Of a DNA stretch of 61,196 nucleotides, positions 11,975 to 56,222 are shown piece by piece; within the stretch, counting starts at the first letter, position 1; every line of letters starts with the position of its first letter. Source of the DNA: Planctomycetales bacterium (GTDB taxonomy: Bacteria; Planctomycetota; Planctomycetia; Planctomycetales; Planctomycetaceae); the NCBI GenBank assembly GCA_026400835.1, contig JAPLOA010000037.1:1-61196 (forward strand), given 5' to 3'. Both the position numbers and the translations under genes were made by a program. Below the pieces are notes generated by a model. It did not search any database. It saw only the letters and a program-made list of their open reading frames with translations, and had not been told where the DNA came from.

Positions 11975-12293
11975 TCAAGCCACCATCGACCTCAGATAGA
12001 AGTTTTGATAAGCATCCGGGACCCGCTGCAGATCGGCGTCGGGAAAAATGAACGAACCATCCAGCAGTTTTGTGTCGTGGTTGACGAGATCTGGATAGCG
12101 GACTCCCGGGACGACTCGCACAGCGACGATTTCCTGCACAGCGTCTTCGAATTTGACGAAGCCAAGGATCTGTCCTGTCTCGATTTGAATCGCTCAGGCT
12201 CCGCAGGTGCGATCCTGTTTTCGCTCGGTGATCGGGATGCCATTGAAGATGGCCGATTCACGAACCTGCGACAATCCTACAAAAGCAACCAGG
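11975..12293 (-). pseudogene. Remnant of a TIGR03032-family protein
   Basis: Read on the minus strand, one frame gives GLVAFVGLSQVRESAIFNG then IPITERKQDRTCGA, an in-frame TGA, and then AIQIETGQILGFVKFEDAVQ followed by EIVAVRVVPGVRYPDL. The intact TIGR03032-type protein at 39048-40490 has the matching FVGLSKIRETSVFGGVPIAE and VGVVDLITGRTVAVFQFL in the same order. Only the C-terminal part remains. The TGA falls where an aromatic residue or Gly would sit, which is consistent with a TGG-to-TGA change. The front of the gene is missing: at about 12300 the sequence passes into a plus-strand adhesin remnant. Confidence 0.75.
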
Positions 12294-12309
12294 CCACAAA
12301 AAAATCGAG

Positions 12310-18951: not shown

Positions 18952-19336
<385 letters not shown>

Positions 19337-19494
19337 TATTTCGCAGATATTCTGAACTGTTTAACGGCAAGACGCAGGCGACTGTGATCACTTGCCTCGG
19401 CGTCTCCGGCTTCGCGGTTAACAGATGCCTTCATGGATCTTCAATCATCCCGCAAAGAATCTTTTCCGCATTTATCGAATAGAGTCTTTCCATC

Positions 19495-32207: not shown

Positions 32208-32573
32208 CTCAGGTGTCGCTTACGACAGAGGTTGGTTCAGGGATCAGCTTGCGATCGATTTAACGGGAGATTTTTCTCGTTGAATCACGAGGTACTGCTC
32301 CCGTCGTGCTGATCTGCGACGACTGTGTCACCTGATTATTCCGTGTACTCTGGCGGCCGGATTTTTTTGAGTCCGGCAGCAGGCATGAGATGTCGCTGCG
32401 AATTTCTCGTCGGCGGGATGGCTTTCTTGAAACGAAACAGTGGACCTCTTTGGATGAGGTTCAAGCTGTTTGAGAACGATCTGCGGATAAGTCCCAGTCT
32501 TCTCCTGTCACTAAGTCACTCCCACTGCCTCACCATCACTTTCTCGCGTTATTCGATCACGAGGTCATTCGAT
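32208..32573. other. Upstream region of the cytochrome gene, nothing recognised
   Basis: No gene, terminator or repeat was recognised. The frame of the cytochrome is open here to 32325, but its residues lack protein character. Confidence 0.5.
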
Positions 32574-35474
32574 ATGACGGACCCTAAGACATCATCAGGC
32601 AATTCGGCCCCGGAAGGCATGGCAGCCAGTTCCGCAAGTTTGGGAAGTACCGCGCCAAAGAAGGTCGTTCGCAAAGCGATTGGGCCGAAGCTTCGGATCG
32701 TGTTCAATGTCGTGCTGGCGCTGCTCGCGTTAATTGGTGCAAATAGTGCTTATCTGGGTGGTGTCACTTTTCTGCAGTGGTGGACGTCGCAGACTTATGA
32801 GGATCTTTTTTATTCGTGGATGTTTCTGCTCCACAGCATGCTGGGACTGCTGATCGTTGTGCCTTTTCTGGTGTTTGGCGTGATTCACATGCTGAACACA
32901 AAAGATCGCAGGATTCGCCGTACCGTGATGATTGGCTACGCTTTGTTCGCGGTCTGTATCGTCGTGTTGATTTCCGGCTTTCTGCTGCTGCGAATCGAAG
33001 GCCTGATTGATCTCAAGAGCCCGGCGGCTCGCTCAGCCGTTTACTGGGCTCATATTCTCACGCCGATGATTGGCGGCTGGCTTTACTGGATGCATCGTCT
33101 GGTTGGGCCAAAGATGCGATGGAAACAGGGCCTGGTCTGGGCCGGACTCGCGGCCGCAGCGGCATTGGGAATGATCTGGTGGCAGGCGCAGGATCCGCGT
33201 GAATGGAACGTCGTGGGACCGAAGGAAGGCACGAAGTACTTTGAGCCTTCGCTGGCTCGCACTGCGACCGGAAACTTCATTAGCGCGGAAACGCTCGATA
33301 TGAACGACTACTGTCTGAAGTGCCATAAGGGTGCGCACGACGACTGGGCGAAGAGTGCTCATCGCTTCAGCTCTTTCAATAACCCGGCGTATCTGGCCAG
33401 TGTCGCGGAAACTCGCGAAGTTTCATTCAAGCGAGATGGCAACGTGCAGGGCTCACGCTTCTGTGCAGGCTGTCATGACCCGGTTCCGTTCTTCAGCGGA
33501 GCCTTCGATGATCCGAAGTTCGACATGCTGAATCATCCCACATCCCAATCCGGGATTTCGTGTACGGTGTGCCATGCGATTACGAATGTGAACAGCAATG
33601 TTGGCAACGCAGACTACACAATCGAAGAGCCGATTCACTATCCGTTTGCGAAGAGCGATAATACGGTTCTGCAGTGGATCAACAATCAGCTGGTGAAAGC
33701 CAAGCCGTCGTTTCACAAGAAGACCTTCCTGAAGCCGCTGCATAAATCGGCCGAGTTTTGTGGAGCGTGTCACAAGGTGAACTTGCCGTTCACGTTGAAC
33801 CACTACAAAGACTGGCTGCGAGGTCAGAATCATTACGACAGTTGGTTGCTGAGCGGTGTGTCAGGTCACGGGGCACGCAGTTTCTACTATCCGGAGAAAG
33901 CTCAGGTCGACTGCAATGGCTGCCACATGCCGCTGGAGGAATCGGCCGACTTCGGTGCGAAGTTCTATGATGAATCCGGAAAGCTCAAGACTCACAATCA
34001 CGTTTTCCCATCAGCGAATTCCGGACTGAACTGGCTGACAAACAATGATGACGCCATCAAAGCACATGACGAGTTTTTGAAAGGAACGATGCGAGTTGAC
34101 CTGTTTGGCGTTCGTGAGGGCGGCACGATCGAAGGCCAGTTGACTGCCCCCTTGCGCCCGAATGTGCCAACACTGAAGCCGGGCAATCGTTATCTGCTGG
34201 AGACGGTGATTCGCACGGTCAAAATGGGCCACCACTTTACTCAGGGAACGACGGATTCCAACGAAATCTGGCTGGAGGTGTCCGTCAACGCCGGCGATCA
34301 GCAGATCGGAGCAAGTGGCATGATGGAGGAAGACAACAGCGTCGATCCTTGGTCGCACTTCGTGAACAATTTCATGTTGGATCGGCACGGCAACCGCATT
34401 GATCGCCGAAATGCCCAGGATATTTTTGTGCCGTTGTACGTTCACCAGATTCCGCCAGGAGCGGGGCAGACCGTGCATTACAGTTTCACGATGCCGAACG
34501 AAGTCAAGGTCCCGGTGAAGGCTCGCGTTCGTTTGCTTTATCGCAAGTTCGACTCGATCTACATGGATTTTGTGGATCGAAAGACGAAGGAGCTGGGACG
34601 ACCAATTCGAGGTCACAAAGAGGGCGAGAAGTATCGCAATGAACTTCCGATTCTCGTCCTCGCCGAAGATGAAGTGACATTCCCGGTCGAAGGTGTCACT
34701 GCCGAAGTCACGAATGGGAAACGAGATATCCCCGAATGGCAGCGATGGAATGATTATGGGATCGGAATGTTCCTGAAGGGAAAGGCTGAGCTGAAGCAGG
34801 CGACGGAAGCGTTCACGAAAGTGGAAGAACTTGGTCGTTTCGATGGGCCGTTGAATCTTGCTCGAGTGCTGGTCGCGGAAGCGGGGCCGGGGCAGCTGGA
34901 TGCAGCAGCCGCTGCCGTACAACGGGCGGCGACTCACAAAGATCCTCCTGCGCCGCCATGGACGATGGCATGGCTGAGTGGTGTGATCAACCGTCAGCAG
35001 GGCGCTCTGGAACAGGCGGAGGCGAATTTCCGTCAGGTACTGGAGTATCGCACAGAGGAAACAATCAAGAAGAAGTTTGATTTCAGCAAAGACTACGAAG
35101 TCATCAATCTGTTGGGACAAACGGTGTTCGATCGAGCCTTACAGATTCGCGGTGATTCGCGAACAGAGGAACGAGGGACGAGACTCAAAGAGGCGGTGGA
35201 GATCTTCCAGAAGACGCTGGCCATCGATTCGGAGAACGTTGACGCCCATTACAACCTGAGCCAGTTGTATGCTCAGTTGAACGACAAAGAAAAAGCCGCC
35301 GAGCATCAGAAGCTTCACGAGAAGTACAAGATCGATGACACGGCTCGTGGAGAAGCTGTCAGCAAAGCACGTCAGAAGTATCCTGCGGCGGATTTCGCAT
35401 CGGAAGCATTGGTGATTTACGATCTGCAGAGGAAACAGAAAGTGGAACCTGCGACAGTTCAGGTGGAAGAATAG
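32574..35474 (+). CDS. Membrane-anchored pentahaem cytochrome c with TPR-like C-terminus
   Basis: The preferred start is the ATG at 32574 (MTDPKTSSGN); the frame runs back to 32325 but that part lacks protein character. The 966-residue protein has five membrane helices in its first 210 residues (for example NVVLALLALIGANSAYL, LHSMLGLLIVVPFLVFGVIH, WAHILTPMIGGWLYWMHRLV). Conserved His residues in helices 2 and 4 suggest a b-type haem or quinone interaction. Five CxxCH haem sites follow: CLKCH (Cys247), CAGCH, CTVCH, CGACH and CNGCH. This is the arrangement of cytochrome c554-like multihaem proteins. The final 250 residues are helical and TPR-like. It probably moves electrons across the cell envelope. 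The next gene, 349 bases on, encodes a CRTAC1-type FG-GAP protein. Confidence 0.87.
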   Translation: MTDPKTSSGNSAPEGMAASSASLGSTAPKKVVRKAIGPKLRIVFNVVLALLALIGANSAYLGGVTFLQWWTSQTYEDLFYSWMFLLHSMLGLLIVVPFLVFGVIHMLNTKDRRIRRTVMIGYALFAVCIVVLISGFLLLRIEGLIDLKSPAARSAVYWAHILTPMIGGWLYWMHRLVGPKMRWKQGLVWAGLAAAAALGMIWWQAQDPREWNVVGPKEGTKYFEPSLARTATGNFISAETLDMNDYCLKCHKGAHDDWAKSAHRFSSFNNPAYLASVAETREVSFKRDGNVQGSRFCAGCHDPVPFFSGAFDDPKFDMLNHPTSQSGISCTVCHAITNVNSNVGNADYTIEEPIHYPFAKSDNTVLQWINNQLVKAKPSFHKKTFLKPLHKSAEFCGACHKVNLPFTLNHYKDWLRGQNHYDSWLLSGVSGHGARSFYYPEKAQVDCNGCHMPLEESADFGAKFYDESGKLKTHNHVFPSANSGLNWLTNNDDAIKAHDEFLKGTMRVDLFGVREGGTIEGQLTAPLRPNVPTLKPGNRYLLETVIRTVKMGHHFTQGTTDSNEIWLEVSVNAGDQQIGASGMMEEDNSVDPWSHFVNNFMLDRHGNRIDRRNAQDIFVPLYVHQIPPGAGQTVHYSFTMPNEVKVPVKARVRLLYRKFDSIYMDFVDRKTKELGRPIRGHKEGEKYRNELPILVLAEDEVTFPVEGVTAEVTNGKRDIPEWQRWNDYGIGMFLKGKAELKQATEAFTKVEELGRFDGPLNLARVLVAEAGPGQLDAAAAAVQRAATHKDPPAPPWTMAWLSGVINRQQGALEQAEANFRQVLEYRTEETIKKKFDFSKDYEVINLLGQTVFDRALQIRGDSRTEERGTRLKEAVEIFQKTLAIDSENVDAHYNLSQLYAQLNDKEKAAEHQKLHEKYKIDDTARGEAVSKARQKYPAADFASEALVIYDLQRKQKVEPATVQVEE

Positions 35475-35534
35475 CGGCATTAACTTCGGCGAGCTGCAGG
35501 GCGTCAGCCCTCCGAGGGAATTTGTTCTCAGTAA

Positions 35535-35640
35535 GTCCTGCCTGCCGGGCAGCGGTGTTTTGTAGGTCCTGCCTGCCGGGCAGCGGTGTTTTGTAGGTCC
35601 TGCCTGCCGGGCAGGACTTCGCGGCTCGCCGCGACTTGAA
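35535..35640. repeat. GTCCTGCC palindrome family, copy 2, as 31-bp tandem repeats
   Basis: The string GTCCTGCCTGCCGGGCAG starts at 35535, 35566 and 35597, exactly 31 bases apart, with CGGTGTTTTGTAG between copies. The third copy is extended to a full hairpin (GTCCTGCC ... GGCAGGAC) followed by TTCGCGGCTCGCCGCGACTT. The rest of 35475-35823 contains no gene. Confidence 0.9.
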
Positions 35641-35823
35641 TGCATGTGATCCTTAAAAATCAGCCTTCCTGGTGTATCAGCTTTGCACAGGTTCGCCTTG
35701 CGGCAATACGAGAATCCTTTCCGGCAGAAAGGAACTGCATTGATTATCATCAACTTGCGCAGTTAATCCCAAAACGTCAAATTGATGCCATTCATCAAGT
35801 TCATAGACACGAATGAACCAGAC

Positions 35824-37683
35824 ATGAATCAGTCGACTGAAAATGAGTCCGAAGAAACACAAAATGACGAAGTCGTTGGTTCGGCGATCAAATGGTCGTT
35901 GGGGGTCTTTCTCGCGCTGGTGGCAGCCGGTGTATTGATCTGGCTGCTGACGAAAAAGCCGCCGGAAATTGTCGTGGAAAAGGCAGGACCGACGGAATTA
36001 CCCACGGAGCGAGTCAAACCAACTCTGGAGATCCCCGAAGTACTCTTCGCAGAGATCACTGACGAGGCTGGTGTGGACTTCGTTCATGAGAATGGTGCCG
36101 ACGGGGAAAAGCTGCTCCCCGAAACCATGGGCGGCGGCGGAGCTTTTTTTGACTTCGACAACGACGGCGATCAGGACTTGCTGTGCATTAATTCCAACGT
36201 CTGGCCGTGGGCCCAACAGCAACCGAAGACGCTTCCGACGTCTGCACTTTATGCCAATGATGGAACAGGGAAATTCACCAATGTCACGGCAGGTTCGGGA
36301 CTGGATGTCGCGATGTACGGCAATGGTGTCGCGTGTGGTGACTTCGATAACGACGACGATGTCGATGTATTTATCAGTTGCCTTGGACTGAACCACCTGT
36401 TTCGTAATGACGGTGCTGGCAAGTTTTCAGACATCACTTCTGACGCCGGTGTCGGCGGCAGTGAGACCGAGTGGAGCACCAGTTGCGGCTGGTTCGACTA
36501 TGACAATGATGGCGACCTGGACTTGTTTGTGGCTAACTATATTCAATGGTCGCGGGAACAGGATCTGTCCATGGAGTTCACTCTGAATGGCACTCTGCGA
36601 GCCTACGGTCGTCCCACCGATTTCACGGGTGCGTTTCCTTATTTGTATCGCAATGATGGAGAGGGTCGCTTTACGGACGTCTCGGAGCAGGCTGGCGTTC
36701 AGGTTCGCGATCCAAATACAAAGGTCCCTGCTTCAAAGTCACTGGGAACCACTTTCTGCGACGTGAATGCCGACGGGCGACTGGACATCATTGTGGCCAA
36801 TGATACGGTCCAGAACTTGTTGTTTGTTAGCCAGGCGGACGGTACGTTTCTGGAGTCCGCCGCAACCGCAGGGGTGGCCTTCGACAATGCAGGATTGGCT
36901 CGCGGAGCCATGGGGATTGATACGGGTTGCTTTCGAAATACAGATGCGATAGGTATCGCGATCGGGAATTTTGCGACGGAGATGACAGCCTTGTACGTGT
37001 GTCAGACTCCGGGGTCCGAGGTTCCTGTTTTTCGCGATGAAGCAGTCTCCAACGGCATTGGCCCGGTCACCAGAACAGACCTGAAGTTCGGCGTGCTGTT
37101 TCTGGATGCAGACCTTGACGGTCGACTGGATCTGTTTGAAAACAACGGGCATCTGGAAGAAGACATCAAAGTCGTTCAGGCCAGTCAGCAGTATGAGCAA
37201 CCTCCACACTTGATCTGGAATTGCGGCACTGAGTTCGATAACGAGTTTGTCATGCTGTCCGAAGCAAAGACCGGACCTGACTTCCAGAAGCGAATGGTCG
37301 GGCGCGGTGCCACGATGGCCGACATCGATCGTGATGGAGATCTGGATCTCGTGTTGTTCAGTTCAGGTGGGCGGCCTCGACTACTTCGTAATGATCAGAA
37401 GTCCGGGCATCACTGGATGCAGTTCAAACTGAAGGGCACAACGTGCAATCGCGATGCCATTGGAGCCGAGGTGAAAGTCACGTTGCCGGATGGAACCGTA
37501 CTGACTCGTCTGGTCATGCCGACCCGCAGTTATCAGTCGCAGGTCGAACTGCCTGTCACATTTGGACTCGGCAAAGTCGACTCAGTGAAAGACGTTACGA
37601 TCCACTGGCCGGATGGTACCACGCAAGCTGTTCCGGTGGCAAAAGTTGATCAGCGGCTGGACGTAGTGCAGAGTGCGAAGTAG
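35824..37683 (+). CDS. CRTAC1 family FG-GAP/ASPIC-UnbV protein
   Basis: The start is the ATG at 35824; the frame extends to 35782. A membrane anchor (WSLGVFLALVAAGVLIWLLT, about residues 24-43) is followed by FG-GAP repeats with calcium-binding DxDxDxDxDL loops: DFDNDGDQDLLC, DFDNDDDVDVFIS, DYDNDGDLDLFVAN, DVNADGRLDIIVAN, DADLDGRLDLFENN and DIDRDGDLDLVLFS. The protein ends in an ASPIC/UnbV domain, GHHWMQFKLKGTTCNRDAIG through GLGKVDSVKDVTIHWPDG. The 619-residue length is normal for the CRTAC1 family. Such proteins are probably extracellular beta-propellers, and planctomycetes often encode them beside multihaem cytochromes, as here. Its partner and ligand are unknown. Confidence 0.9.
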   Translation: MNQSTENESEETQNDEVVGSAIKWSLGVFLALVAAGVLIWLLTKKPPEIVVEKAGPTELPTERVKPTLEIPEVLFAEITDEAGVDFVHENGADGEKLLPETMGGGGAFFDFDNDGDQDLLCINSNVWPWAQQQPKTLPTSALYANDGTGKFTNVTAGSGLDVAMYGNGVACGDFDNDDDVDVFISCLGLNHLFRNDGAGKFSDITSDAGVGGSETEWSTSCGWFDYDNDGDLDLFVANYIQWSREQDLSMEFTLNGTLRAYGRPTDFTGAFPYLYRNDGEGRFTDVSEQAGVQVRDPNTKVPASKSLGTTFCDVNADGRLDIIVANDTVQNLLFVSQADGTFLESAATAGVAFDNAGLARGAMGIDTGCFRNTDAIGIAIGNFATEMTALYVCQTPGSEVPVFRDEAVSNGIGPVTRTDLKFGVLFLDADLDGRLDLFENNGHLEEDIKVVQASQQYEQPPHLIWNCGTEFDNEFVMLSEAKTGPDFQKRMVGRGATMADIDRDGDLDLVLFSSGGRPRLLRNDQKSGHHWMQFKLKGTTCNRDAIGAEVKVTLPDGTVLTRLVMPTRSYQSQVELPVTFGLGKVDSVKDVTIHWPDGTTQAVPVAKVDQRLDVVQSAK

Positions 37684-37689
37684 TGGTGT

Positions 37690-39051
37690 TTAACGACGAT
37701 TCCCCGCGCAACAAAGCAAGGCGTTCTCCAGACATCGAACTTCCGCCGGATCATCGAACAACACCGCTGATTGAGCTGCAATTCGAGCCCGAATTGCCTG
37801 CCTGAAAGCCTGATCTTTGGCCAGCCGTACGGCTAGTGCAATATACTCGTCTGTCGTGTTGACAATGCAATTAATCATCTGCATCTTGCGATAGAGGCCA
37901 GCCGTGATGCGGCCTCGCAAAAATGGACTGGGCAGCGTGATCACAGGAGTTCCCATCGCCAGAGCTTCGTAGCTGCTGTTGCCGCCGCCGAAATGCAGAG
38001 GATCCAAAATCACGTCGCAGATCCGTAATAAACGCAGATAATCATTGTTCGCAATCGCGGGCAAAAATACGATTCGATCTTGGACGTCTGCCAGTGTCTT
38101 TTGCCAGCGTGAACGCAGTCGTTTCGTCCACTCCGGAACTCGACCTTCAATAACAACGATGCGGCCCTGAGGATCGGCTTTCAGGATTCCGCGGAGCACA
38201 ATGTCATCGTCAGGATGAAATTTAAACAACGACTGCGGGCAACCATAAATTGGTCCCGAGCCTTCGAGTCCTGGCAGTCGGCGGATAGATTCCGGATCGG
38301 CAGGTACCTGTGGACGCTCGTAAGACGTCCCGGTGAGTGGCATTCGCACAAGCGTTTCCGTGTAGTGTTCCTGAGCATATGGTTCGTCCAGAAGTTCGCT
38401 CGACAGAAAGTAGTCCATCGTCGGGCTACCTGTCGTTTCCGGATGTCCCCATGTCACACACTGAACCGGAGCCATTCGCGAAAATGCAAGCGTTGAGCAC
38501 AACGCATCCATCCCGACGTCGGCAAATAGCAAAACATCCAGCTCTAATTGTCGCAGCGCGGCGATCGCCGCTTTAACGTCGCGAGGAATTACGACGTACT
38601 CATCCGCTCCGTTCTGAAACCGTCGGCTGAATTCGTCGTCAGAACTTGAGGCTGCACAAACAGTCACATGGAATCTGGATCGATCCAGTTTCTCGATCCT
38701 GCCGATATTCAGGCGACCGATCGTGTGATTGCGGAAGTAGGCAGACAGAAACCCAACACGAATTCGCCTGTCCGACGATTCTCCGTTCGGTCGCTCATTC
38801 GCGATGCTTTGCAAATTCGCTTCCGCTGAGCCCACAACGATTCGACCTCGCAATGCCATGGCCTGGCTGTCATTCAGCCCCTGATAGGCCCAGAAGAAAG
38901 CTGTCGGGACAAGCTGCGATGTGGCGTCAACAGAGACGCCTTCTGCGGCCATCGTCTCAAGAGCTGAATGCTGTTCCAGACGCCAATGCTGCAGGTCTTC
39001 CCGCGATTGATATACGACCGGCAGGACCGAAGTCGCCAGCAGTCGGTTCAT
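37690..39051 (-). CDS. GT41 (O-GlcNAc transferase-like) domain, 3' part of a split gene
   Basis: The isolated frame from ATG 39051 encodes 453 residues with the GT41/SPINDLY-type C-terminal domain: RVGFLSAYFRNHTIGRLNIG, DVLLFADVGMDALCSTLAFS, PVQCVTWGHPETTGSPTMDY, CPQSLFKFHPDDD, and the donor-site DVILDPLHFGGGNSSYEALA then MGTPVITLPSPFLRGRITAG. Related enzymes transfer GlcNAc or another sugar to Ser/Thr or Asn. Normally such domains sit after TPR repeats. Here the missing TPR part and a TIGR03032-type domain are in the upstream gene, and removing one copy of an 11-bp duplication at 39116-39137 joins them in one frame. The stop is at 37690, seven bases from the convergent CRTAC1 stop. It may be non-functional as it stands. 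Confidence 0.85.
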   Translation of the reverse strand: MNRLLATSVLPVVYQSREDLQHWRLEQHSALETMAAEGVSVDATSQLVPTAFFWAYQGLNDSQAMALRGRIVVGSAEANLQSIANERPNGESSDRRIRVGFLSAYFRNHTIGRLNIGRIEKLDRSRFHVTVCAASSSDDEFSRRFQNGADEYVVIPRDVKAAIAALRQLELDVLLFADVGMDALCSTLAFSRMAPVQCVTWGHPETTGSPTMDYFLSSELLDEPYAQEHYTETLVRMPLTGTSYERPQVPADPESIRRLPGLEGSGPIYGCPQSLFKFHPDDDIVLRGILKADPQGRIVVIEGRVPEWTKRLRSRWQKTLADVQDRIVFLPAIANNDYLRLLRICDVILDPLHFGGGNSSYEALAMGTPVITLPSPFLRGRITAGLYRKMQMINCIVNTTDEYIALAVRLAKDQAFRQAIRARIAAQSAVLFDDPAEVRCLENALLCCAGNRR

Positions 39052-40490
39052 CGGAGAAGGATTGATGGCCAGAAGTTCGCGGTAGACATCGCGAGCCTTT
39101 TCCGGGAAGCCCTGATTAAATAAAAGTTAAATAAAAGATATCCGAGATTCTGCCGTGCGGCGGACATGCGAGGATCAGCCTCGACTGCTCGCTCATAGCA
39201 CACCAGAGCCTCCGGCTGACGATTTTGTTCCTGCCGAAGATTACCAAGTGTGATCCAACTGGCGGCGTCCTTTGGGTTCAGAGCCAACCAGTCTTCGAGA
39301 CTCAAAGGCTGCGGTTCCGTCGATCGTTGAGAACCAGCAACGGGAGACGCCGTTCGAGCAGTATCCACCACGGCTGACGTTTCTGAAACAAACCATGGAA
39401 GCCCCGCTGTGACAGAGGGCAATGATCCCGGCTGTGGCACGATCCAGACGTCGTGTTCTTTGCCCTCGGAACTGGCCCCGGCCACATACGGACATGCCGC
39501 CCCTTGAGCGGCTTCGACGGCAAAAATCTCTGTCACACCGGACAGAAACTGAAATACCGCGACCGTTCGCCCTGTGATGAGATCCACGACGCCCACGCCG
39601 CATTTTAGTTCATTGCGGCGTTCAGCAATTGGAACTCCACCGAAGACGGACGTTTCGCGTATCTTCGACAGTCCAACGAACGCAAACTGGCCTGCGAAAC
39701 TGAGTCCTCGAGTATATCCGGGGAATGTTTCAACAGTTGTAAACTGCCCGGTCGCAGGATCAATCGTTCCGAGTGCTCCGCGACCAGAATCCAGAACCCA
39801 CAATTTGCCGTTGTACCATCGTGGTGAATGGGGCATCGCGAATCCGCGAGCAACCGTTTCGCCGGAATCCACATGCATGACAACCCCGCTGGTCGCCTTG
39901 GTGGGACGCCAGCCTGCCGCCGTATCGGATTCTGCCATCGCTGTCACAAAACCCGGACGGCCATCCACTAACGCCAGACCATTCAGATGACAACGGTCCT
40001 GATCAATCAACTGGCTGATGAAACGAGGTTTCCATCGCGGCACAAAGCTGTAATCTTCATGCAGAGTCGACAAGCAGGAAAACAGAGTATTTACGACCCA
40101 CAGTCCTTCCGTTCCCCACGCCAGATCATGCCCATGGATACTACCGGTCCAGGTCGAAGTCCGTGGAACATAGCACACGTCCCAGGTGTCTGCTGGATCC
40201 ACCGACCCGGCGACATCACGATTGCCTGCGAGAAAATTCATCTGTTTGCGAGTGCCGATGGCAAGCCGATCGCCATCAACGGCCAGCCCCATCGGCTGAT
40301 CGTAGTTCGAGAATGAAATCTTTAAGGTCCCGTTGTGAACACCCAGCACCAGTAGTTTCCCCGCTTGATACGTCGTCACCATCAACGAACATTTCAGGTG
40401 ACTCAGAATATCGGCCAGGATTGGCGTAAACTCATAACGCACCTCGAGGACGCGTTCTGTTTTCGACTCGCCATCTTCCGGGGTACTCAT
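39048..40490 (-). CDS. TIGR03032-family propeller plus TPR start, 5' part of a split gene
   Basis: The preferred start is the ATG at 40490 (MSTPEDGESK), with GGAAAG at 5 bases; earlier in-frame ATGs at 40508 and 40622 exist. About 390 residues form a TIGR03032-type domain: LKCSLMVTTYQAGKLLVLGV, WGTEGLWVVNTLFSCLSTLH, HLNGLALVDGRPGFVTAMAE, FAMPHSPRWYNGKLWVLDSG and FVGLSKIRETSVFGGVPIAE. A TPR unit follows: ALNPKDAASWITLGNLRQEQ, then ALVCYERAVEADPRMSAARQ. After an 11-bp duplication the frame runs into about 25 unrelated residues and stops at 39048. Repaired, it would continue into the GT41 domain for a 929-residue protein. TIGR03032 proteins have no established function. Confidence 0.86.
   Translation of the reverse strand: MSTPEDGESKTERVLEVRYEFTPILADILSHLKCSLMVTTYQAGKLLVLGVHNGTLKISFSNYDQPMGLAVDGDRLAIGTRKQMNFLAGNRDVAGSVDPADTWDVCYVPRTSTWTGSIHGHDLAWGTEGLWVVNTLFSCLSTLHEDYSFVPRWKPRFISQLIDQDRCHLNGLALVDGRPGFVTAMAESDTAAGWRPTKATSGVVMHVDSGETVARGFAMPHSPRWYNGKLWVLDSGRGALGTIDPATGQFTTVETFPGYTRGLSFAGQFAFVGLSKIRETSVFGGVPIAERRNELKCGVGVVDLITGRTVAVFQFLSGVTEIFAVEAAQGAACPYVAGASSEGKEHDVWIVPQPGSLPSVTAGLPWFVSETSAVVDTARTASPVAGSQRSTEPQPLSLEDWLALNPKDAASWITLGNLRQEQNRQPEALVCYERAVEADPRMSAARQNLGYLLFNFYLIRASRKRLAMSTANFWPSILLR
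39116..39137 (-). repeat. 11-bp tandem duplication that splits the TIGR03032-TPR-GT41 gene
   Basis: On the plus strand TTAAATAAAAG stands twice in direct succession (39116-39126 and 39127-39137). On the minus strand the coding sequence reads GGATATC then TTTTATTTAAC twice. With one copy removed the frame is GYLLFNQGFPEKARDVYREL then LAINPSPMNRLLATSVL, a normal TPR helix pair. With both copies the frame shifts and ends within about 25 codons. Confidence 0.93.
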
Positions 40491-40954
40491 GAGTTCTTTC
40501 CGATTCATTTCTTTACTGTCGCTGTGAGACCACGGAAGATTCAGCGTGTTTCGCATTTGCCATGCAAGCGACGCAAACACATCTTTGCACATTGTGAGTC
40601 GTTCTTCCGAAAAGGCAAACACTCTCGTGGACTGCGGCAGCCCGCTGCCGCTTTGGTGCAGGCTGCATACTGCCGAAACTCGAGCCTGAAGCTACGCTGG
40701 AAATCGTTATCCACAGCAGTTTGTGAAGTCGAAAGCTGCAGCGGTCTGCCGAAGTCCTGAGGGGCGTGATCCAAAGTCTGCCCTGAGCGCTTTTGATGGT
40801 GCCATGAAATCCCGAACCGCTTGCAATGCGGCAGGCGCCCCGATAACTTTTCGTGGGCTTTGCTTCCGCAGTGGTCGTTGCCATTGCAAATTCCACCGGC
40901 TGCGGCCTTTCTTTGGGCCCGGCGTTCCTTTGTTTTGCAGTTCAGGAAGTCTCC
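40491..40954. other. Divergent intergenic region, nothing recognised
   Basis: This gap separates the divergently transcribed TIGR03032 gene (minus) and the TIM-barrel gene (plus), so it must hold promoters for both. No strong promoter hexamers or repeats stand out. Confidence 0.5.
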
Positions 40955-41850: not shown

Positions 41851-42120
41851 TCATCATAACCCGAAACATTAGTGAGGGATTGAGTTGTGAATTGTCAACG
41901 GCGTCCCGCAGATCCCTCGCTGGCGCTTTTTGAAGTTGCGCATTTGCGTCTATCCCAACCCGCTGCGTGAGCGAGGGATTGTGTTTTAGCGTTTGAGGCA
42001 GTGTTTCCGTAAATCCCTCGCTGACGCTTCGGGTTATGATAAACCCCAGGGTTTCTGCGCAAGTGAACAACCTCAGCGCCGAAACGCGCAACTTCAAAAC
42101 TGGCGCTTCGGGTTACGATG
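41851..42120. repeat. Dispersed inverted repeat family, copy D, compound
   Basis: The stretch holds two successive hairpin halves: CATAACCCGAAACATTAGTG then AGATCCCTCGCTGGCGC, TTTTTGAAGTTGCGCATTTG, CCCAACCCGCTGCGTGAGCG then AAATCCCTCGCTGACGCTTC, and finally ACGCGCAACTTCAAAACTGG. No gene is seen in 41850-42244. Confidence 0.8.
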
Positions 42121-46091: not shown

Positions 46092-46350
46092 TTCACAACC
46101 CGAAACGTGAGTCAGGGATAAGATCTGCCGCCTTTTTCGAAAACAATCCCTCGCTGACGCGTTTTGAAGTTGCGCTGTTCAAGAATGGGGAAGATCAACG
46201 GGACGAAAACAAGGGAATCATCACAACCCGACGCGTCAGCGAGGGATTCTTGGAGACATTGGTAAAACGGGAAATCGCAATCCCTCGCTGACGCGTCGGG
46301 TTGTGATAGCCGCAAAATGCGCAACTTCAAAACTTACGCGTCGGGTTGCG
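46092..46350. repeat. Dispersed inverted repeat family, copy E
   Basis: CACAACCCGAAACGTGAGTC, then CAATCCCTCGCTGACGCG with TTTTGAAGTTGCGCTGTTC, then ATCACAACCCGACGCGTCAG and CAATCCCTCGCTGACGCGTC, ending with GCGCAACTTCAAAACTTACG, are arranged as in copies B, D and F. Sequence 46351-46720 shows no gene. Confidence 0.8.
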
Positions 46351-55828: not shown

Positions 55829-56222
55829 TTTTTGAAGTTGCGCGTTCGCGGCTATCCCAACCCGAAACGTCAGTGAGGGATCGCGATTTCGCGTCTGGAC
55901 ATTTCTGTCCCCAAATCCCTCGCTCACACTTTTTGAAGTTGCGCATTTTGGCGCTGAGGTTGTTCACTTGCGGAGAAACAAAGGGATTTATCACAACCCG
56001 ACGCGTCAGCGAGGGATTTACGGCAACCCTGCGTAAAACGCAAAAGCACAAGACCTCACTTACGTTTCGGGTTGGGATGACCACAAACGCGCAACTTCAA
56101 AACGCGTCAGCGAGGGATTTACGGAAACACTGCCTAAAACGCTAAAACACAATCCCTCGCTCACGCAGCGGGTTGGGATAGACGCAAATGCGCAACTTCA
56201 AAACTCTCACTTAGGGTTGTCA
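55829..56222. repeat. Dispersed inverted repeat family, copy F, compound
   Basis: The longest copy. Several head-to-head modules follow each other: TTTTTGAAGTTGCGCG, CCCAACCCGAAACGTCAGTG, CAAATCCCTCGCTCACAC, ATCACAACCCGACGCGTCAG, and ACGCGCAACTTCAAAACGCG, then CAATCCCTCGCTCACGCAGC and GCGCAACTTCAAAACTCTCA. Each module pairs with another in the opposite orientation. No gene is seen in 55570-56495 otherwise. Confidence 0.85.

Follow-up and report, generated by a model that had tools for sequence, protein, structure and literature searches.

The minus-strand gene at 37690-40490 is most likely an allele that was frameshifted recently; the conserved gene from which it derives is a single one and encodes a predicted TIGR03032 beta-propeller, a GT41 domain and, between them, a short TPR stretch. 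The broken gene itself is ordinary, and it is the intact fusion, present in many related bacteria, that offers the first clue to the role of TIGR03032. What is new here is a predicted TIGR03032 propeller that is fused to GT41, GT4, GT9-like or GNAT domains and often encoded beside ELWxxDGT genes. The window, i.e. the whole stretch of 61,196 nucleotides that was analysed, corresponds to contig C11 in its entirety; the genome measures 7.58 Mb and is split into 112 contigs. By gene sequence, the closest named records of the window are planctomycete metagenome assemblies. The features referred to below are the following:

39048..40490, minus strand: first piece, TIGR03032/DUF4915 domain and start of the TPR region, 480 aa
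39447..40433, minus strand: TIGR03032 domain, predicted beta-propeller (profile match, structure model and Foldseek)
39168..39266, minus strand: TPR unit of the first piece (TPR_1, residues 453-485 of the 524-aa ORF)
39116..39137, no strand: exact frame-shifting 11-bp tandem duplication, TTAAATAAAAG x 2 (copies 39116-39126 and 39127-39137)
39048..39051, minus strand: ATGA overlap of first-piece stop and second-piece ATG, from the ORF coordinates
37690..39051, minus strand: second piece, putative GT41 (O-GlcNAc-transferase-like) catalytic region, 453 aa, open frame
12068..12307, minus strand: degraded TIGR03032 fragment, profile positions 248-327, one TGA inside

The two pieces lie in minus-strand ORFs of different frame (39048-40622 and 37690-39051). 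Within the former, the ATG at 40490 was taken as the start of the first piece, because the homologous ATG of the orthologous locus L003 sits directly after a stop codon. The final 29 of the 480 residues run from the start of the repeat onward and end at the stop TGA (39048-39050). The first piece scored 410.4 bits with the TIGR03032 profile (curated cut-off 251.5) and 402.5 bits with DUF4915, PF16261 (cut-off 35), and the second piece scored 86.3 bits with the GT41 profile PF13844 (cut-off 25), placing each piece in its family. The two frames share 79 nt (39048-39126), in which programmed ribosomal frameshifting could join them; this is hardly credible, as no canonical slippery heptamer in phase was seen by eye in the overlap and the relatives need no frameshifting.

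The fused gene was present in seven of the 18 genomes of the genus, namely that of the window and G004, G005, G006, G012, G015 and G017, and it formed one open frame in all six others (the copy of G012 ends at a contig end). The fused form that the first-pass annotation had proposed to look for in related genomes was thus found, with 931 aa in L003 (G015) and 929 aa in L004 (G004). Both loci (L003/L032 and L004/L033) are syntenic with the window, sharing the same convergent ASPIC/UnbV gene. When the window's pieces were compared separately with these orthologues, not as one joined frame, the GT41 piece was 92% identical to L003 and 91% to L004, the TIGR03032 piece was 94% identical to L003, and both pieces mapped onto one continuous frame in either orthologue. 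At the junction, no length difference was seen other than the extra 11-bp copy, so that the frame is broken relative to the orthologues, as in a pseudogene. The claim that one minus-strand gene was split by an exact 11-bp tandem is therefore confirmed: relatives carry a single frame and no repeat. Separate genes in close relatives would have spoken against it; the syntenic single-frame orthologues instead rule out two separate ancestral genes. No close second intact copy was found elsewhere in the genome; the window's was the only close GT41 copy detected, the other match being 24% identical.

The break falls after codon 451, where the intact orthologue's model has a helix (443-455), which by our reading would be the first helix of a second TPR. 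This is a small correction to the earlier description of a TPR helix across the join. Promoter- and terminator-like sites around the fused gene were no commoner than in shuffled sequence. The fused gene adjoins an ASPIC/UnbV FG-GAP gene (35782-37683, plus strand) and a multihaem cytochrome/TPR gene (32325-35474, plus strand). Both types of gene are also found near the fused gene in L059, the ASPIC gene alone in L060, and in L116, L117 and L123 the pair lies next to a TIGR03032 gene that stands alone.

The ATGA overlap invites the idea of a functional fission, in which both pieces are made, coupled through the overlap, and act as two proteins. The second piece indeed retains its catalytic region and its constraint (see below), and two loci elsewhere (L084 and L091) have separate TIGR03032 and GT41 genes side by side, in divergent orientation. 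We consider a fission very unlikely: no clear ribosome-binding site was seen by eye before the second-piece ATG, and the break interrupts the predicted TPR helix, after which an off-frame tail follows. Moreover, in L003, L004 and L006, which are fused, this ATG corresponds to an internal Met with Asn as the next residue; such a pair always reads ATGA, so the overlap is not a designed feature. It might nevertheless allow some restart.

As a mutation, this short duplication is ordinary. Its doubled 22-mer is found at a single place in the 7.58-Mb genome. In a survey of the window and 20 stretches of the same genome (343,167 bases), 19 exact tandem duplications with units of 9-60 bp were found, 11 of them with units of at least 11 bp, an about sixfold excess over the average of 3.2 obtained from five first-order resamplings. 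From this excess it follows that the 11-bp repeat is real as sequence, yet not exotic; together with the uniqueness of the 22-mer, it rules out a chance repeat. A microhomology-driven duplication was also considered and rejected: the array is exactly 22 bp and matching stops at the edges of the two units, so that no flanking microhomology is visible. As for other repeats of the window, a dispersed element with the core CGTCAGCGAGGGATT occurs at 19 places (for example 42012-42026, 46234-46293 and 56004-56165; 19 matches with up to two mismatches, 0.16 expected), often in inverted pairs whose starts are spaced by about 46 bp. A 31-bp unit in 2.7 copies lies between two genes at 35531-35614, and a full-length match to bacterial RNase P RNA class A was detected at 18955-19337 (plus strand).

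The extra 11 bp were absent from the junction in all seven relatives printed there (L003-L009). An on/off switch, in which slipped-strand mispairing between one and two copies toggles the enzyme, had been suggested for this locus. Glycosyltransferases are classic phase-variable genes, a perfect tandem copy could in principle be lost again, and constraint after the break is kept. Still, an evolved switch is not supported, because the repeat has just two copies and is missing from all seven relatives, unlike the multi-copy tract kept across relatives that phase-variable genes have. The unit does not lie within a longer tract either, and the break site falls inside a predicted TPR helix; we therefore regard a switch as quite unlikely. 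Were reads to show that the 11-mer varies in copy number, the locus would also be a natural example of such an enzyme being switched on and off.

Among the changes unique to one of three genomes (window, L003, L004) in the half after the break, the window had 22 synonymous and 9 non-synonymous ones, a ratio resembling those of L003 (40.5 and 12.5) and L004 (41 and 20). Likewise, dN/dS was 0.148 for the window and L003, 0.180 for the window and L004, and 0.142 for L003 and L004. This is not the relaxed constraint expected of a pseudogene, and it fits a very recent break. Neutral drift along the whole window branch would predict about 66 non-synonymous changes, against the nine seen; by a rough estimate with the synonymous count held fixed, at most about 7-15% of the branch was unconstrained. 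If the duplication were as old as the branch, the copies would still be identical with a probability of 0.04-0.17 (for an assumed dS of 0.15-0.08). From the constraint kept after the break, it can be inferred that the break is very young, that the second piece is working, that the two-copy state is unfixed, or that we are dealing with an error. Kept downstream constraint is equally expected of a still-functional split gene.

The last of these, a sequencing, assembly or strain-mixture artefact in a genome whose dominant real form has one copy, appears unlikely to us. The frame downstream shows no decay, and a genome in 112 contigs may be a metagenome assembly, both of which would suit an artefact. 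Conversely, short exact tandem duplications are not rare here (19 in 343 kb), some of them possibly errors too; a 22-bp array is far below usual read lengths or assembly words, and we know of no platform for which an exact 11-bp duplication is a typical error. The break is probably recent and ordinary.

According to the favoured reading, that of a recently frameshifted allele, the propeller and TPRs of the intact enzyme would recruit a protein to which the GT41 domain would add a sugar, ELWxxDGT surface proteins being candidates for the recruited protein. The duplication would have arisen through a local error of replication or repair, late on the branch leading to the window, and would have uncoupled recruitment from catalysis in this genome. 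The cell would make the propeller with a truncated TPR, and restart of ribosomes at the ATGA overlap might yield a little free GT41 domain, with substrate recruitment by the fused enzyme lost or impaired.

Five further TIGR03032 loci were present in the genome, all degraded: the window fragment listed above and copies on contigs C18, C27, C35 and C52, which are cut short or lack residues. In this genome, members of the family are therefore commonly lost. When tandem units of 5-60 bp were sought at the latter four copies (the window fragment being left out), only units of 5-6 bp were found, the closest to the C18 junction lying about 25 bp away; since none of the four carries a long tandem duplication, the mode of breakage is not shared.

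The fusion had been thought unusual, which our counts contradict. Named genomes were scanned with two peptide patterns derived from the six fused relatives, both inside TIGR03032, and the best 80 of 87 loci were kept, a selection that favours fused ones. TIGR03032 and GT41 shared one open frame in 24 of the 80 (L062 and L081 reach a contig end), including that of the isolate Lacipirellula limnantheis (L083), and L069, with one in-frame stop, brings the fused loci to 25. This stop is at 2110-2112, and the metagenome assembly that contains it is described in its record title as being of very low coverage. One locus (L095) gave no TIGR03032 profile match; 54 of the remaining 79 were not fused to GT41 within the sequence fetched (L087 and L089 being cut by a contig end). 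In the order as a whole, a single match spanning both parts was found in at least 12 of 170 genomes, the split window copy not counted; the figure is a minimum, since only five candidates were scored per genome. On a tree of the 80 TIGR03032 domains (one FastTree run with midpoint root and some weak nodes, the contig-cut L087 and L089 counted as alone), parsimony gives seven changes of the fused state.

In cyanobacteria of the Microcystis order, many TIGR03032 matches fall within long frames. Of eight loci hand-picked for frame length, five encode GT41 within the TIGR03032 frame itself (L184, L185 with two GT41 stretches, L186, L187 and L189), and L190 had a separate GT41 gene within the locus. 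A Pfam scan of seven proteins from six of these eight loci revealed other partners in one frame with TIGR03032: a GNAT acetyltransferase in L190 and L185, GT4 in L191, and a weak GT9 match, just above cut-off, in L188. Domain databases may well have such fusion partners on record already.

For TIGR03032 or DUF4915, neither NCBIfam nor Pfam gives a function, and in open-licence full texts no paper was found under the names TIGR03032, DUF4915 or ELWxxDGT. Large ELWxxDGT-repeat proteins are often encoded beside TIGR03032 genes, in Planctomycetes, Nocardioides and some Cyanobacteria. With a neighbour defined by two or more motifs in the flanking sequence of loci L059-L138, an ELWxxDGT gene was present at 37 of 79 TIGR03032 loci (6 of 25 fused, 31 of 54 other), and 42 had none within the flank examined. 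Of these neighbours, 33 lay within 300 bp (between stop-to-stop frames) and 30 were on the same strand. All seven neighbour proteins scanned exceeded the cut-off of TIGR04534 (ELWxxDGT), and four of them also matched cadherin, Ig-like, RTX, Calx-beta or dockerin domains. Two controls yielded no ELWxxDGT gene: 269,869 bases taken from the genome to which the window belongs, and 22 GT41 loci with short flanks from other genomes (84,514 bases). The window contains none; those of its genome are located at least on C27, C28 and C35, and on C27 and C35 they adjoin the degraded TIGR03032 copies.

In 118 Nocardioides genomes (TIGR03032 above cut-off, ELWxxDGT at E up to 0.001), 11 had both, 4 and 11 had just one of the two families, and 92 had neither (P = 6.7e-7); by the listed positions, the pair lay within about 1.1 kb in ten of the 11 genomes with both, though not in G195. 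Co-occurrence as a universal rule is rejected, because Nocardioides fits it but 148 cyanobacteria of the Microcystis order (16 both, 68 only TIGR03032, 11 only ELWxxDGT, 53 neither; P = 0.47) do not, and the window's genus shows only a weak trend (18 genomes; for the fused gene and ELWxxDGT 6, 1, 5 and 6; P = 0.11). In Synechococcus elongatus, TIGR03032 was present and no ELWxxDGT match was found.

Gene order thus ties TIGR03032 to ELWxxDGT repeats, neither family having a stated function, and gene fusion ties it to OGT-like glycosyltransferases. The functional link between TIGR03032 and GT41 put forward in the first-pass annotation can be inferred from this, and we propose that TIGR03032 may recruit substrates for protein modification. 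More tentatively, the propeller could recognise the substrates of the fused GT41, GT4, GT9-like or GNAT enzymes, with ELWxxDGT surface proteins as a main class, and the window gene could be their dedicated glycosyltransferase, switched off by a fresh duplication. A direct, testable hypothesis follows on the modification of giant surface proteins in Planctomycetes and other bacteria.

As for structure, an AlphaFold2 model of the window's TIGR03032 region (residues 1-360; pLDDT 88.3, pTM 0.87) resembled the beta-propellers of kelch, LRP and nidogen proteins in Foldseek (TM about 0.5 over the query), and beta-propellers dominated among the matches listed; TIGR03032 is accordingly predicted to be a beta-propeller. 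PDB sequence matches of the first piece (best 60 of 66) all lay within its TPR part. The intact orthologue was modelled too (931 aa, mean pLDDT 85.3, pTM 0.59), and this model matched human OGT, fly OGT, SPINDLY, TtOGT and XcOGT, with E down to 4.5e-32 and about 20% identity to the OGT/SPINDLY structures in structural alignments. The His of the NHT motif and the Lys at the K341 position of TtOGT, presumably the active-site Lys (the structure 5djs is TtOGT carrying K341M), align with a His and a Lys of the second piece, which are invariant across six fused relatives (H585 and K753). An OGT-type fold, seen in the intact orthologue's model rather than in the window piece, and the conserved Lys and His are thus present. 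By profile, predicted fold and these two residues, the second piece would be a GT41 glycosyltransferase with putative sugar transfer activity.

Several known systems can be compared with the window gene. Phase-variable simple-repeat genes are alike in having a perfect tandem within the gene, in a unit not divisible by three; they differ in that the repeat described here has only two copies and was missing from every relative compared. The fusion family represents a variant form of the GT41 enzymes: human OGT, XcOGT, TtOGT and SPINDLY share the TPRs and the GT41 catalytic fold with the fused protein, which adds an N-terminal TIGR03032 propeller and has few TPRs. HMW1C and related N-glycosyltransferases, which to our knowledge are without a propeller, are a weaker sequence match (3q3e, E 8e-17), and the 71 bits scored with the NGTferase model fall far short of the 1000 bits that NCBIfam sets as its cut-off. 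The role that we propose for the fused enzyme resembles by analogy that of HMW1C, by which a large adhesin is glycosylated before its export.
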